Positions 16,752-23,174 of a stretch of 53,544 nt of DNA are shown here, in pieces. The position numbers and the translations under genes are program-made. Source of the stretch: Bacillota bacterium (lineage in GTDB: Bacteria; Bacillota; Bacilli; Alicyclobacillales; SLC66). Position 1 is the stretch's first letter, and every line of letters starts with the position of its first letter. The notes under the pieces are model-generated. The model searched no databases. It saw nothing but the letters and a program-made list of their open reading frames with translations, and was not told the DNA's origin. The stretch is taken from contig JAJZEE010000011.1 of NCBI GenBank assembly GCA_021805735.1, positions 1 to 53,544 of the forward strand, given 5' to 3'.

Positions 16752-16842
16752 CGGAGTGAGAGGGATTCGAACCCTCGATACGCCTTTACAGCGTATACTC
16801 GCTTAGCAGGCGAGCGCCTTCGACCAACTCGGCCATCACTCC
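16752..16842 (-). tRNA. tRNA-Ser (GCT)
   Basis: 91-nt type II tRNA with acceptor GGAGTGA/TCACTCC, anticodon stem-loop CTCGC-CTGCTAA-GCGAG (anticodon GCT), a long variable arm and GGTTCGAATCC. CCA is not encoded (TTC follows the discriminator G), unlike the other tRNAs in this window. Confidence 0.95.
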
Positions 16843-16858
16843 AACATGAGAAGGAAAA

Positions 16859-16934
16859 TGGAGCCACTTGCCGGATTCGAACCGGCTACCTGCTCATTAC
16901 GAGTGAGCCGCTCTACCAACTGAGCTAAAGTGGC
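16859..16934 (-). tRNA. tRNA-Thr (CGT)
   Basis: Acceptor GCCACTT/AAGTGGC, anticodon loop CTCGTAA in stem GCTCA/TGAGC, CCA encoded. Confidence 0.95.
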
Positions 16935-16944
16935 AGCAGATCAT

Positions 16945-17021
16945 TGGTGGCGGAGGAGGGACTCGAACCCCCGACACTGCGGGTATGAACCGCATGCTCT
17001 AACCAGCTGAGCTACTCCGCC
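16945..17021 (-). tRNA. tRNA-Met (CAT), elongator type
   Basis: Acceptor GGCGGAG/CTCCGCC fully paired, anticodon loop TTCATAC in stem TGCGG/CCGCA, CCA encoded. The paired first base and D-arm fit elongator Met rather than initiator; Ile2 (modified CAT) is less likely because it resembles Bacillus elongator Met closely. Confidence 0.92.
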
Positions 17022-17024
17022 TAC

Positions 17025-17118
17025 TGGCGGAGAGAGTGGGATTCGAACCCACGAGACGGTTTAAAGCCGCCTACACGATTTCCAATCGTGCTCCTTCGAC
17101 CAACTCGGACATCTCTCC
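17025..17118 (-). tRNA. tRNA-Ser (GGA)
   Basis: Type II tRNA, acceptor GGAGAGA/TCTCTCC, anticodon loop TTGGAAA in stem CACGA/TCGTG, long variable arm, CCA encoded. First gene of the four-tRNA minus-strand cluster. Confidence 0.95.
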
Positions 17119-17784: not shown

Positions 17785-19212
17785 TTAGAGAATTGTCGCC
17801 CGCAGAGCTCCCAGCTTATGATCACACTCCCGCCATTCCTGTCCGGGATCGGAATCCGCGACGATGCCTGCGCCAGCCTGCAAGTACGTCACTCCATTCT
17901 GATGAACCACTGTACGGATGACAATGGCGGTGTCGATATTGCCAAAACAGTCAAACATCCCGATCACGCCTCCGTACGGACCGCGCCGGAATTCCTCAAG
18001 TTCGTCAATGATCTCCATCGCGCGCACTTTTGGCGCTCCGCTCAAGGTGCCAGCCGGAAATGTCGAGAGAAAGACCTCATATGGACTGACGCCAGGTCTC
18101 AGCTTTGCCGTCACGAGCGACACCAGGTGAAATACATGAGAGTACTCCTCAATTTGCAACAGTTGAGCCACTTCAACCGTTCCGGGCGCCGCGATACGAC
18201 CGAGGTCATTGCGGCACAGATCGACCAGCATGACATGCTCTGCGCGTTCCTTGGGATCGCGCAGTAATTCCTCCATCAGCTTCAGATTCTGCTCGGGCGT
18301 CTTGCCTTTGCCTTTGGATGTACCCGCTATCGGTTTCATTTGCGCTATTCCCTGATCGACCCGCACCTGCATCTCCGGGCTCGCGCCAAAGATCAGGTAC
18401 GATCCATAGTGGGCGTAGAACATATACGGTGAAGGGTTCATCGCCCGTAACCGCCCATATACCTCCAGAGTATCGATATCGCCAAGGATACGCATGCGCT
18501 TTGATATGACACACTGAAATACGTCTCCGGCGCGAATGTATTCTTTGGCGCGTAAAATACGCCCCACGTAGTCCTCGTACGACACGTCTTCATGTACTTG
18601 CAGCGCATTCTTGTCATAGCCTTCAAATACTGGCGGGCCGTCCTTGGCCAGATTCACCAACCGCTCAATCGCCTCCAGGCCTGGTCCGTCCACACCCTCG
18701 AAATAGTGAATGTAAAGATTCATGCGTTCCGGAGTAATATGCATGACGATACGATGGATTTGCAGATGAAAATCGTCGACAGTCCTATCGTCCGCTGTGC
18801 TGTCGGGAATATCCTCAAAATAGCGGATGCAGTCATACCCGAAAAAGCCCAAAAATCCGAACGCGTGAGCAGGCAGATCAGGTTCCGGAGCAAACGCCTG
18901 CATGATGGCGTCGAGCTTTTGAGGGAGTTCTTTCCCGATAGAGTGCTCTGGAGAAAGCCCGATCCCGGACAACACGCTGTCGTGCCCTTCGATGGTCATC
19001 CGATCGCCCTTGCCCCGGGCAGACAAAACAGGAAACAACCCTATGATCGAGGAACAGTATGCACTCTTGGAATCAGTCACGGAGTCCAGTAGAAATCCCT
19101 GTTCTGGACCGTATTCCCGTACAAACGCTGTAAAAAAGGAGAATGCCTCAGCCTGTGCGGGAAATTGGTAACGGGCTGTCCGAACCCTCAACGGAGCTGC
19201 CACCCTAGTCAT
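17785..19212 (-). CDS. trpE: Anthranilate synthase component I (TrpE; PabB possible)
   Basis: 475 residues of the chorismate-binding family. C-terminal catalytic motifs include PIAGTSKGKGKT (PIAGT as in TrpE; PabB usually has PIKGT), HVMLVDLCRNDLGRIA, STFPAGTLSGAPKVRAMEIIDELE, GPYGGVIG and LQAGAGIVADSDP. Near the N-terminus GFLLDSV matches the LLES-type tryptophan feedback motif. The enzyme makes anthranilate from chorismate using ammonia from the amidotransferase encoded just upstream (trpG overlaps by ATGA). The TRAP-type leader ahead of trpG supports a tryptophan rather than folate role. The rest of the trp operon is not adjacent. Confidence 0.88.
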   Translation of the reverse strand: MTRVAAPLRVRTARYQFPAQAEAFSFFTAFVREYGPEQGFLLDSVTDSKSAYCSSIIGLFPVLSARGKGDRMTIEGHDSVLSGIGLSPEHSIGKELPQKLDAIMQAFAPEPDLPAHAFGFLGFFGYDCIRYFEDIPDSTADDRTVDDFHLQIHRIVMHITPERMNLYIHYFEGVDGPGLEAIERLVNLAKDGPPVFEGYDKNALQVHEDVSYEDYVGRILRAKEYIRAGDVFQCVISKRMRILGDIDTLEVYGRLRAMNPSPYMFYAHYGSYLIFGASPEMQVRVDQGIAQMKPIAGTSKGKGKTPEQNLKLMEELLRDPKERAEHVMLVDLCRNDLGRIAAPGTVEVAQLLQIEEYSHVFHLVSLVTAKLRPGVSPYEVFLSTFPAGTLSGAPKVRAMEIIDELEEFRRGPYGGVIGMFDCFGNIDTAIVIRTVVHQNGVTYLQAGAGIVADSDPGQEWRECDHKLGALRATIL

Positions 19213-19841
19213 TGCCGCACCCCCGTAACGACAGGCGCAGTGTCGACTGTTCCGGTCGGAGAATCAAGTTCACCAGCGATGGCAAGGAAGTTTTCGATCA
19301 TTTCATGACCGAATTCAGTCAACACTGCTTCTGGGTGAAACTGAACGCCAAACACGGGGTACTCACGATGTTGCACAGCCATCATCAACCCGTTGTCTGC
19401 GCGAGCCGTCACCCGAAGACATTCAGGCATATGTTCCGGTGAAATGACCAATGAGTGATATCTGGTGGCGTAAAACGTTGACGATATGCCTCTGAAGAGG
19501 GGTGAGGTACCGTCCTGGCGAATCAGCGAAACCTTGCCGTGCATGATCTCGCCAGCTCGTACAATGGTCGCGTCAAATGCCTGACCGATGGATTGGTGCC
19601 CCAGACATACTCCAAGAATCGGAATTTCCGTATACAATGCGGATACCGTTGCTACCGAAATTCCCGCTTCATCCGGCGTGCACGGCCCCGGTGAGATGAC
19701 AATGCCTCTCGGCTTCATGGCTGCAATCTCATCCACAGTCGTTTCATCATTGCGGTAAACTTTAACATCGGCCCCAGCCATAAGCATGTACTGGACCAAA
19801 TTGAATGTAAAGGAATCATAGTTGTCGATCACGACAATCAT
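19209..19841 (-). CDS. trpG: Anthranilate synthase glutamine amidotransferase (TrpG/PabA)
   Basis: 210 residues, class I glutamine amidotransferase. The start IVVIDNYDSFTFNLVQYM is diagnostic of TrpG/PabA. The catalytic triad is visible: Cys in LGVCLGHQSIGQAF, His and Glu in GVQFHPEAVLT. ISPGPCTPDEAG and ATRYHSL are also conserved. It supplies ammonia to TrpE and, as in many Bacilli, the same protein could also serve PabB in folate synthesis. The 3' end overlaps trpE. Expression is probably controlled by the leader at 19876-20063; AAGGCGG precedes the ATG. Confidence 0.92.
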   Translation of the reverse strand: MIVVIDNYDSFTFNLVQYMLMAGADVKVYRNDETTVDEIAAMKPRGIVISPGPCTPDEAGISVATVSALYTEIPILGVCLGHQSIGQAFDATIVRAGEIMHGKVSLIRQDGTSPLFRGISSTFYATRYHSLVISPEHMPECLRVTARADNGLMMAVQHREYPVFGVQFHPEAVLTEFGHEMIENFLAIAGELDSPTGTVDTAPVVTGVRQ

Positions 19842-19875
19842 CCCGGCATTCCGCCTTTGCTACTAAAATGGAAAC

Positions 19876-19903
19876 AAAAAAACCACTGCCGGTTCCGTCG
19901 TGG
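19876..19903 (-). terminator. Attenuator hairpin in the trpG-trpE leader
   Basis: On the minus strand CCACGACGGAACCGGCAGTGG (imperfect stem, CCAC/GTGG outer pairs) is followed by seven T. It lies between the triplet array and trpG, 35 bases before the start codon, as expected for a TRAP-controlled transcription terminator. ACTCG just before the stem could pair with CGAGT in the triplet array as an antiterminator (inference). Confidence 0.6.
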
Positions 19904-19959
19904 TCGAGTGTGCCCAAACCATGCGCAATGTACGCGCCTGGTGACAGGCTCCTGTGTGG

Positions 19960-19997
19960 CTATGCTCAACTCGCCTCAACTAAATCGGACTCTGCTC
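19960..19997 (-). promoter_or_regulatory. TRAP-type (trp RNA-binding attenuation protein) binding site
   Basis: The minus-strand transcript reads GAG-CA-GAG-UC-CGA-UU-UAG-UU-GAG-GC-GAG-UU-GAG-CA-UAG. That is seven (G/U)AG triplets in an exact 5-nt register (plus-strand triplets start at 19960, 65, 70, 75, 80, 90, 95), with one degenerate position at 85. A further GAG lies at 19949-19951. This is the hallmark of TRAP targets, which carry up to 11 triplets spaced by 2-3 nt. It sits between a strong promoter and the attenuator. Confidence 0.82.
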
Positions 19998-20034
19998 AGC
20001 CGGCGTCGCTGCTTGACGCCGCGCTATATGTGTG

Positions 20035-20063
20035 AGTCTAGCGCAGTAACCGGATATTGTCAA
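20035..20063 (-). promoter_or_regulatory. Sigma-A promoter of the trpG-trpE leader
   Basis: TTGACA (20058-20063), exactly 17 bases, TAGACT (20035-20040). Transcription would start near 20028, giving a leader of about 190 nt before trpG. Confidence 0.85.
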
Positions 20064-20231
20064 TACTCATTTTCCATGAGGTGTTGTTCACTTCCGATGA
20101 TTTAGACCCCACGTTACAAATGCCGTCGCTCGCTTCTGACCTTCCTCATATAACATCAAGATGAGAAGATCACCGTGGGGCCGATACACCGGAACTTGCC
20201 GATTGGTATTCGAAAACGTCCGAAGGAAGGG

Positions 20232-21482
20232 ATGGATGTTCAGGTGACAAAACCCCCAAGCATCAAGAAGCGAGCTAAGAAATTGAGCAGACCAGGCGCA
20301 CCCTGCTGTACACTGATCATTAACAAGACCATTGTGAAATGTGGGCGTGTGAAATGCCGAAGGCATGGACCTCGTGGACCTCGTGGACCTCGGGGACCTG
20401 CCGGACCTGCCGGACCTCCTGGACCTCCTGGACCTCCTGGACCTCCTGGACCTCCTGGACCTCCACCCCCTTGTGGAATGCCGTCCTGCCGCTGGGTCGA
20501 GAGTCCAAATAACCCGTGCTACTCCCCATCCATGCCGGCGTATTATCAGACGGTGCGTTACAGGGCCGACGGGTTTGCTCCTTTTGGTCCGTTCGCGTTC
20601 TACAAAATGTGGTACGACTTTGCCAGTACTGGCGGAATTGCTGTGGCCTCCTCTACAAATGGGATCAACTGGACTTTTCGGGCTTATGTTACTGGTCTGG
20701 TGCCTACATCTCGGCATTCCAGGGTTTTATTTGACCCAGATGGGTTTGGCATAGGGGCGCCATACAGGATTTGGTATTGGGATTCGGCCTATCTTTATGT
20801 GGATGACGCTGCCGTACTTCGCATGCTCCGAACTGCCAGTTCTGTCGACGGGATCAATTGGACCGATGACACCACTCTCGTCCAAGATACGGCCTCACCT
20901 TTGCTGACTCCTTTTCCCGCTTATAACAGGGGGAGTTATGGACCAGCAGATGTTTTGTACTTCCCGGATAATCCTCCGGTTCTTGATCCGGTCAATGCTT
21001 TTAATAACCGATACGTCATGTACTACAACATTACCGATGGATCGACTGAGCAACTGGCGTTGGCCGTGTCCGTCGATGGTGTATTCTGGAGAAAGGAAGG
21101 CCCTTTAGCTGTACTTCCCACAGGCAGTGCCGTCTCATGGGACGAGAATTATGCAACCGAGCACGCTGTGGTACTTCGCCTGACAGCGAGCAACTTCATG
21201 ATGTGGTACAGCGGAGGAAGAACAACTTCCCATGAAGGAATCGGCTGCGCGTCATCAACGGATGGGATACATTGGGTGAAATTCTCGGGAAATCCGATAT
21301 TCAGCATTAGCGATGGGGTTCTGTGGAGAAATGAACGCACGCATGACCCTTGGGTATTGTTTGATCCCTTACGATTCAGCGGTCATGGCGACTCAGTCTG
21401 CTTTAAGTTTTGGATGACCGGCGCCCCGGCCGCAGCTCCCGCGAATATTAGCGTAGGTTACGCCACCAATCTTTTGGGATAA
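20232..21482 (+). CDS. Collagen-like protein with C-terminal beta-propeller-like domain
   Basis: 416 residues from the ATG at 20232, close behind AAGGAAGGG; in-frame GTGs at 20175 and 20244 are alternatives. A basic N-terminus ([10 protein letters not shown]), two Cys clusters ([16 protein letters not shown]), then 11 Gly-X-Y triplets: three GPR, two GPA and six GPP. The remaining ~330 residues contain repeated blades with the pattern MWY-x(n)[12 protein letters not shown], AVSVDGVFW and [14 protein letters not shown], resembling five-bladed glycosidase-like propellers (GH32/43/DUF377 type). No signal peptide is visible, as in BclA-type spore surface proteins. A spore-surface role is inferred; enzymatic activity is unproven. 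A terminator follows. Confidence 0.8.
20367..20466 (+). repeat. 9-bp tandem repeats encoding Gly-X-Y collagen triplets
   Basis: About 11 near-identical 9-bp units (GGACCTCCT and variants such as GGACCTCGT and GGACCTGCC) lie in frame inside the collagen-like gene. They are prone to slippage, so repeat number may vary among strains. Confidence 0.85.
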
Positions 21483-21655: not shown

Positions 21656-21913
21656 TCAGTACCGTGTACTGACAACCAGCTTCACCGTGTGCTTCTCCGG
21701 GATCTGCAGAGCTTGTCCAGTCTGGGGATTTCGCCCGGTGCGCGCCGCCCGCGTGGCCGGTTTGAGTTTGCCGACGCCCACGATCGTCACTTCTTCCCCG
21801 GCTTTCAACTGCTCGTGTATGGCTTCTTGCAGCGCGTTCCACGCCGCCTCTGTGTCCTTCTTGCTCAAGCTGCTTGCTTCGCGGGCCCGTGTGATCAGTG
21901 CTTCCTTGCTCAA
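21656..21913 (-). CDS. HU family DNA-binding protein
   Basis: 85 residues if started at the TTG at 21913, which follows AAGGGGG with ~8-base spacing. This reproduces the usual HU N-terminus (SKEALITRAREASSLSKKDTE) and length. The domain is complete: AWNALQEAIHEQLKAGEEVTIVGVGKL, then the beta-arm region and ATRAARTGRNPQTGQALQIPEKHTVKL with the conserved RNPQTG/IPE motif. HU bends DNA as a dimer and organises the nucleoid. The frame stays open upstream to 22195 through an XRE-like segment, so a fused 179-residue product is formally possible. I favour separate HU translation because of the TTG with its own ribosome site. Confidence 0.8.
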   Translation of the reverse strand: MSKEALITRAREASSLSKKDTEAAWNALQEAIHEQLKAGEEVTIVGVGKLKPATRAARTGRNPQTGQALQIPEKHTVKLVVSTRY

Positions 21914-22008
21914 GTTGGCTACCCCCTTCTGATCGGTGTACAGGTTCAGTATTCCGACATACGTGTGCGTCGCCCAATCATCGACCACTTTCACCCAGAC
22001 CAGATGTC

Positions 22009-22195
22009 CTAAACGCACAGTTCCAACGCCCGCGCGCGCTATGCGAATGCCCACGCCGAGAGTCGGCGTCCGCTTTTGCTGAACAATCTGACTGAGCGTA
22101 TGCGCCGATATCTCGGCGTGCGAAGCAAACCAGATCTGCTTCATGCCCCGCGCGTCCCGGATGGCTCGCAACCGATTTCTTGAGCCCACCGACAC
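22009..22195 (-). pseudogene. XRE-type helix-turn-helix regulator, apparently frameshifted/truncated
   Basis: From the ATG at 22195 the frame encodes a Cro/CI helix-turn-helix: RNRLRAIRDARGMKQIWFASHAEISAHTLSQIV, then QQKRTPTLGVGIRIARA. Small XRE regulators normally continue A-L-x-V-x-x-x-D-L-W. Here that continuation (ALELCV, then DIW) appears only in another frame, with a TAG at 22009-22011, while the annotated frame runs on into HU. This suggests an indel plus stop in a former stand-alone regulator, or a natural read-through fusion with HU. DNA binding by the intact N-terminal part remains possible. Confidence 0.5.
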
Positions 22196-22308: not shown

Positions 22309-22385
22309 TGGTGGGCCTAAGTGGACTTGAACCACTGACCTCACGATTATCAGTCGTGCGCTCTAGCCAGCTGAGCTATAGGCCC
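22309..22385 (-). tRNA. tRNA-Ile (GAT)
   Basis: Acceptor GGGCCTA/TAGGCCC, anticodon loop CTGATAA in stem CACGA/TCGTG, GGTTCAAGTCC T-arm, CCA encoded. Last gene of the eight-tRNA minus-strand cluster. Confidence 0.96.
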
Positions 22386-22388
22386 GTA

Positions 22389-22464
22389 TGGTTGCGGGGG
22401 CAGGACTTGAACCTGCGACCTTCGGGTTATGAGCCCGACGAGCTGCCAACTGCTCCACCCCGCG
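22389..22464 (-). tRNA. Initiator tRNA-fMet (CAT)
   Basis: Starts CGCGGGG with an unpaired C1:A72, has the GGG/CCC anticodon-stem pairs around CTCATAA (CGGGCTCATAACCCG) and encodes CCA. These are initiator hallmarks. Confidence 0.96.
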
Positions 22465-22497
22465 TCGATATGCTGTTTGTTCCACACCAAGGTATGG

Positions 22498-22572
22498 TGG
22501 TGGGCGGTGGCAGGATCGAACTGCCGACCCCTCGCGTGTGAGGCGAGTGCTCTCCCCCTGAGCTAACCGCCC
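22498..22572 (-). tRNA. tRNA-Val (CAC)
   Basis: Acceptor GGGCGGT/ACCGCCC, anticodon loop CTCACAC in stem CTCGC/GCGAG, CCA encoded. Confidence 0.95.
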
Positions 22573-22574
22573 AC

Positions 22575-22733
22575 GTTCGGCTTCAGATGCGTGTCGGATG
22601 GCTGCGTCACTACGCCATCGCCCGCTCACTCATGGACCTGCGCGTACACTCATTCGCGTGCGCTGCCTGTTCCTTGCCCTCCTCGCGCCTCTTTGCCTCC
22701 GGTTCGGCTTCAGATGCGTGTCGGATGGCTGCG
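22575..22733. repeat. 32-bp perfect direct repeat between tRNA-Val and tRNA-Glu
   Basis: The unit beginning GTTCGGCTTCAGATGCG and ending GGATGGCTGCG occurs at 22575-22606 and 22702-22733, 127 bp start to start. The first copy begins 2 bp after the tRNA-Val gene. The intervening ~95 bases hold no gene I can support. This is the only long spacer in an otherwise tight tRNA cluster. Confidence 0.85.
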
Positions 22734-22742
22734 CGATACGTA

Positions 22743-22817
22743 TGGTGACCCCAAGGGGATTCGAACCCCTGTTCCCGCCGTGAAAGGGCGGTGTCTTAAC
22801 CGCTTGACCATGGGGCC
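22743..22817 (-). tRNA. tRNA-Glu (TTC)
   Basis: Acceptor GGCCCCA/TGGGGTC, anticodon loop CTTTCAC in stem CCGCC/GGCGG, CCA encoded. Confidence 0.95.
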
Positions 22818-22820
22818 GTC

Positions 22821-22895
22821 TGGCTCCCCGAGTAGGATTCGAACCTACGACCCTCCGGTTAACAGCCGGATGCTCTACCGCTGAGCTATCGAGGA
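22821..22895 (-). tRNA. tRNA-Asn (GTT)
   Basis: Acceptor TCCTCGA/TCGGGGA (with a G-T pair), anticodon loop CTGTTAA in stem TCCGG/CCGGA, discriminator G, CCA encoded. Confidence 0.95.
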
Positions 22896-22900
22896 ATCTA

Positions 22901-22976
22901 TGGTGGAGCTAAGCGGATTCGAACCGCTGACCTCTTGAGTGCGATTCAAGCGCTCTACCAACTGAGCTATAGCCCC
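22901..22976 (-). tRNA. tRNA-Ala (CGC)
   Basis: Acceptor GGGGCTA/TAGCTCC containing the G3-U70 identity pair, anticodon loop ATCGCAC in stem CTTGA/TCAAG, CCA encoded. Confidence 0.95.
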
Positions 22977-23005
22977 GAAATCCACTGCCTTGCATCTGTG
23001 CGGTA

Positions 23006-23091
23006 TGGTGCCGAAGGCCGGACTCGAACCGGCACGGGGATCACCCGCGCGCTTTTGAGGCGCGTGCGTCTGCCAATTCCGCCACTTCGGC
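23006..23091 (-). tRNA. tRNA-Leu (CAA)
   Basis: Type II tRNA, acceptor GCCGAAG/CTTCGGC, anticodon loop CTCAAAA in stem CGCGC/GCGCG, long variable arm, CCA encoded. Confidence 0.95.
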
Positions 23092-23097
23092 TAACGA

Positions 23098-23174
23098 TGG
23101 CGTGCCCGGAGAGATTCGAACTCCCGGCCTTTTGATTCGTAGTCAAACGCTCTATCCAGCTGAGCTACGGGCAC
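23098..23174 (-). tRNA. tRNA-Arg (ACG)
   Basis: Acceptor GTGCCCG/CGGGCAC, anticodon loop CTACGAA in stem TTTGA/TCAAA, CCA encoded. First gene of the cluster. Confidence 0.95.

Follow-up and report, generated by a model that had tools for sequence, protein, structure and literature searches.

The leader in front of the trpG-trpE gene pair is very probably a TRAP-dependent transcription attenuator. It lies on the minus strand of the window, the whole stretch of 53,544 nucleotides from a Bacillota bacterium analysed here, directly ahead of the tryptophan genes trpG and trpE. Its order (20063-19876) is promoter, 5′ stem-loop, triplets, GC hairpin and seven T, followed by trpG and the overlapping trpE. 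TRAP itself is a textbook regulator that has been studied in depth in Bacillus. The first-pass annotation had proposed that a trpG-first pair has its own TRAP attenuator, and this proposal is supported by the presence of the TRAP gene mtrB, the triplets, the promoter, the attenuator hairpin and the gene order. Computation established the parts of the leader, their conservation, the presence of mtrB and the mutually exclusive folds at trpG.

Parts of the trpG-trpE leader

The features, all on the minus strand, are:
20035..20063, minus: promoter, −35 TTGACA (20063-20058), 17-nt spacer, −10 TAGACT (20040-20035)
near 20028, minus: transcription start expected from the promoter position
19998..20025, minus: 5′ stem-loop, core GGCGUC (20020-20015) / GACGCC (20007-20002)
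19960..19997, minus: predicted TRAP site, seven (G/U)AG triplets, kept in the family
19997, 19992, 19982, 19977, 19972, 19967 and 19962, minus: triplet starts, reading GAG, GAG, UAG, GAG, GAG, GAG and UAG
19969..19980, minus: antiterminator 5′ strand GUUG-A-GG-CGAGU, inside the triplet region
19897..19909, minus: antiterminator 3′ strand ACUCG-A-CC-A-CGAC, overlapping the terminator 5′ arm
19881..19905, minus: terminator hairpin, arms GACCAC (19905-19900) and GUGGUU (19886-19881)
19876..19882, minus: run of seven T, read from the sequence
19851..19858, minus: ribosome-binding sequence AAAGGCGG, 9 nt ahead of the trpG start
19209..19841, minus: trpG, amidotransferase subunit of anthranilate synthase, 210 aa (TIGR00566, 234.6 bits, cut-off 121)
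17785..19212, minus: trpE, anthranilate synthase component I, 475 aa (best match TIGR00564)

No other TrpG/PabA-type protein than the trpG product was found in the genome; two other matches had the lengths of GuaA and CarA. The start of trpE overlaps the end of trpG by 4 nt. Its product scored 414 bits with TIGR00564, below the equivalog cut-off of 518, and 286 bits with the Pfam chorismate-binding model, and carried a PIAGT motif as in TrpE.

A consensus promoter had been noted ahead of the triplets, and with 10 of 12 consensus matches it was borne out. The match is weak when taken alone, with 0.8 such matches expected by chance in that region; the TTGACA/TAGACT-type arrangement recurred in the leaders of four relatives (G011, G012, G015 and G017).

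The exact 5-nt register ascribed to the seven triplets held in part: all seven fall on one grid, but one slot (19987, reading CGA) is empty, leaving one 7-nt gap between five contiguous triplets and two that lie one slot upstream. The triplet chain score was 5.7 at the leader. A scan of both strands of the window in 1,066 overlapping 300-nt segments gave 2.4 at the next best place, and the highest value among 20,000 random 300-nt sequences was 4.7. Only two sites across the 3.76 Mb of the genome have five contiguous in-register triplets. These chain scores and the genome-wide rarity indicate that the triplet feature is real and not due to chance. Stable TRAP binding was described for RNAs with at least seven triplets (PMC4027176), the number counted in this leader; some relatives had fewer in register.

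The 5′ stem-loop had a folding energy of −17.4 kcal/mol (z −3.2). Compared over seven of the ten trpG leaders in the family, its core had changed on both sides in 4 of its 6 pairs, and all 42 of 42 cells (100%) were paired; the arms had been chosen by hand from folds and an artificial AAAA loop placed between them for the count, which favours pairing. Pairing was lost when the arms were slid. Since it was kept through two-sided changes and lost on sliding, the comparison supports the reading of the 5′ hairpin as a selected RNA structure. The leader as a whole was conserved too: in nine other family genomes, one of them with the leader cut by a contig end, trpG was preceded by promoter, 5′ hairpin, triplets, hairpin and T-run in widely changed sequence.

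The surroundings of the gene pair held other features. The divergent neighbour is a collagen-like frame with a short tandem DNA repeat (20175-21482, plus strand), which gave a weak Pfam Collagen match below cut-off and overlaps a 209-aa ORF on the other strand. A 179-aa frame (21656-22195, minus strand) combines a C-terminal HU/IHF-like domain (residues 97-167) with a weak HipB-type helix-turn-helix match (residues 9-54), and is a possible DNA-binding fusion. Two tRNA clusters (16752-17118 and 22312-23174, minus strand), with twelve tRNA matches in all, flank trpG-trpE and the collagen-like region.

Competing folds and rival explanations

The hairpin with seven T described ahead of trpG was confirmed as an imperfect one, with an internal loop, an energy of −9.2 kcal/mol and its T at 19882-19876; a simple consensus terminator scan had missed it. 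In the most stable fold of the leader in the window's own genome (G000), GUUGAGGCGAGU of the triplet region was paired with ACUCGACCACGAC, which includes the terminator 5′ arm. The computed probability of the terminator was 0.008 in the free leader and 0.949 when the whole triplet span was masked, a crude model of TRAP binding; masking no more than the last four triplets still gave 0.929. Control masks of the four-triplet size placed elsewhere in the leader gave 0.09 on average and 0.39 at most. When only the sequence upstream of the terminator was shuffled, none of 300 leaders combined a free value of at most 0.05 with a masked value of at least 0.9, and the mean change was 0.01. The antiterminator duplex alone was weakly above chance in G000, where 49 of 500 shuffles were equally stable, and more unusual in other genera.

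A fold switch was also computed for relatives, other genera among them, with hairpin arms and transcription starts set by hand. Going from free to masked, it was seen in G012 (0.035 to 0.951), G011 (0.16 to 0.79), G017 (0 to 0.62) and G008 (0.17 to 0.92), was strongest in G006 (0.009 to 0.994) and G007 (0 to 0.99), and was weaker in G015 (0.003 to 0.22) and G016 (0.02 to 0.28). In G008, masking other places freed the terminator as well (control mean 0.48). G003, which has the same gene pair, gave no switch, its terminator standing at 0.97 either way. For leaders of the second family of the order, the automatic version of the test mostly met terminators that were too stable or picked the wrong hairpin or triplets.

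From these parts we infer that TRAP binds the leader, that the leader responds to tryptophan and that termination takes place in the cell. With little tryptophan TRAP would be inactive, and GUUGAGGCGAGU of the triplet region would pair in the nascent leader with ACUCGACCACGAC, the upstream arm of the terminator; this pairing would block the terminator and trpG-trpE would be transcribed. With ample tryptophan the (G/U)AG triplets next to the 5′ stem-loop would be occupied by the TRAP ring, which would destroy the antiterminator, allow the 3′ hairpin with its U-run to form and stop transcription before trpG.

The same triplets might instead serve mainly to block translation of trpG, the hairpin being incidental. 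In B. subtilis, trpG (pabA) belongs to the folate operon and has TRAP-type triplets upstream, as here. TRAP there blocks the ribosome-binding site of trpG by covering it, according to papers cited in PMC4347634, and in one genus of the second family (g10, see below) the trpG start has triplets close by and no terminator in between. In the leader studied here, however, some 120 nt separate the last triplet (19962) from the start codon (19841) downstream, and the hairpin, the T-run and the competing fold stand between triplets and gene, so that we regard a mainly translational site as improbable. The following gene, trpE, is a further difference from the B. subtilis case. Still less probable is a constitutive intrinsic terminator or promoter-proximal hairpin, with triplets that are chance purine-rich sequence. 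Purine-rich GAG runs do occur elsewhere, on contig C167 of G011 and at the start of a methyltransferase frame after trpS, but the triplets are unique in the window and were kept despite sequence change, mtrB is present and the fold switches.

A leader peptide coupling translation to termination could be read from ATG 19922, where a short frame with a Trp codon (ATG GTT TGG GCA ... TAG) spans the terminator region in G000 and G012. That Trp codon is a single one, no ribosome-binding site is obvious, and G011 reads ATG GAC TTA GGC at this place, with no Trp codon but with the triplets kept; we rejected this candidate, which has very little chance of being right. T-boxes commonly control trp genes in Bacillota, and a T-box or another described riboswitch was therefore considered. 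At gathering score, tRNA families were the only Rfam matches in the window, so that this candidate was rejected as well, its probability being close to nil. We retain the TRAP-dependent attenuator as the most probable explanation of the leader.

TRAP, anti-TRAP and the trpD leader

Whether the strain has mtrB had been left open by the first-pass annotation. The gene was found, intact, in the window's genome (3.76 Mb, 170 contigs, 97% complete) at C134:26030-26233, beside a tRNA-like sequence; the refuting case named by that annotation, a genome lacking mtrB, therefore does not apply. Its 79-aa product gave a match of 121 bits (6e-35) in the genome search and 123.3 bits with the NCBIfam model (cut-off 117). 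The best structure matches were all solved TRAP proteins, aligned along its length, and the segments KLDKGEV and SAIKVRG, which we take to hold the RNA-contacting lysines and arginine of TRAP, were conserved with respect to these structures. Over the family mtrB was found in 16 of 18 genomes and over the order, probably Alicyclobacillales, in 54 of 59; the incomplete draft genome G003 was among those in which it was not found. The search for rtpA (anti-TRAP), likewise suggested by the first-pass annotation, found none in the 18 family genomes, whereas the B. subtilis trpEDCFBA system has anti-TRAP. Of the 59 genomes of the order, five had an anti-TRAP match above cut-off, and all five belong to the other family. 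This distribution suggests TRAP control without anti-TRAP.

In G019, probably Alicyclobacillus acidocaldarius DSM 446, mtrB was interrupted (L228, G019:C1:1761800-1762400), with its N-terminal piece missing and the frame broken. This genome keeps the trpG triplets despite the broken gene; related species have intact copies.

The rest of the tryptophan pathway had been described as absent, which is true of the window only: in G000 trpC lies on contig C100 with trpD ahead of it, and in relatives the trpD-trpC region follows aroB. A second TRAP-type leader, with triplets and a hairpin with a T-rich tail, precedes trpD. Its triplet score was 4.7 in G000 and 3.7-5.0 in 14 of 15 genomes, compared with a maximum of 3.1 in random 2-kb sequences; the trpD leader of G013 had only two triplets in register. 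An antiterminator can be drawn for trpD (GUGAGCG with CGUUCAC, extended by CCUUAGU with ACUAAGG). Covariation between the upstream arm and the terminator arm was not significant, as 135 of 2,000 permutations were as good, with the G010 row mis-cut, and in equilibrium folds the terminator formed with or without masking. We therefore describe this leader as TRAP-type, its mechanism being unproven; a switch at trpD, if real, would be kinetic. With such a second leader, TRAP would be able to switch off the two halves of the split pathway at the same time.

In three genomes with fused trpEG (G001, G002 and G010), five or six contiguous triplets were present upstream of the gene; G014 had a looser group, and in G013 none could be seen.

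Two other GAG runs deserve mention. Just after trpS, seven GAG in perfect 5-nt register (G000:C162:10638-10670; L003/L004, also L141 and L151) overlap the likely ribosome-binding site and the start of a methyltransferase-like frame. This run is kept in G012 and decayed in G011; it may be a further TRAP target or a coding repeat, and because it decays in G011 we leave it as a side note. In G011 itself, ten GAG triplets in perfect 5-nt register lie near a contig end (L150, G011:C167:88-135), a run of the same pattern not being found in G000 or G012.

Control mode across the order

TRAP can control either transcription or the access of ribosomes to the RNA (PMC4347634). Both modes appear to be represented in the order. 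In the second family, all 39 trpG loci examined have upstream triplets, in some cases with only two or three in register, and a trpE-like frame followed trpG in the 20 loci for which downstream DNA was read. By an automatic rule, 23 of 24 loci outside genus g10 have a hairpin and T-run ahead of the gene. In g10, presumably Alicyclobacillus, all 15 species have triplets near the trpG start and no terminator between. The g10 loci (L189-L194 and others) share with the window the gene pair and its order, the TRAP-type triplets and mtrB (degenerate in G019), but in g10 the triplets are 20-82 nt upstream of the reference point, the conserved NFDSF codons, and trpG-trpE is likely under translational control there. 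Since terminators are found outside g10 and start-proximal triplets without terminator in g10, the way in which these same genes are controlled appears to vary from genus to genus. Triplets precede trpD too in 20 second-family genomes, near the start in g10 and some others.

In several second-family leaders (L197, L198, L203, L204, L216, L218, L220 and L221), a TTCAGCTC..GAGCTGAA-like sequence adjoins the ribosome-binding site and, as seen by eye, could also pair with the GAGCTGAG triplets. This suggests, by analogy with B. subtilis trpE, that an added translational refolding step may operate in these leaders.

The closest known system is the B. subtilis trpEDCFBA leader, which also has a 5′ stem-loop. 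Shared with it are (G/U)AG triplets with 2-nt spacers, an antiterminator overlapping the terminator and TRAP in the genome. It has 11 triplets, however, in place of the seven in register here, and it controls trpE-D-C-F-B-A, whereas the present leader would control trpG-trpE, with a separate leader for trpD-trpC. In the open-access literature, the scope of our search, no paper was found on a TRAP-controlled trpG-trpE pair. The open-access TRAP papers concern Bacillus or TRAP as a protein, and the sole one with both Alicyclobacillus and mtrB appears to concern iron oxidation. The attenuation mechanism is already known; the target pair, the split arrangement and the change of mode appear to be undescribed in the literature searched.

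In conclusion, we consider it likely that the trp regulon of this order is split into trpG-trpE and trpD onward, each with its own TRAP leader, mostly without anti-TRAP and with a mode that depends on the genus: most genera would use a terminator in the leader, and the presumed Alicyclobacillus would rely on triplets placed at the ribosome-binding site. If this is true, the order would be a natural series in which the targets of an RNA-binding protein move between transcriptional and translational control. A split regulon with two modes on one gene pair would offer a comparative test of triplet number, 5′ stem-loop and overlap, and the same comparison would bear on how attenuation and translational repression interconvert.
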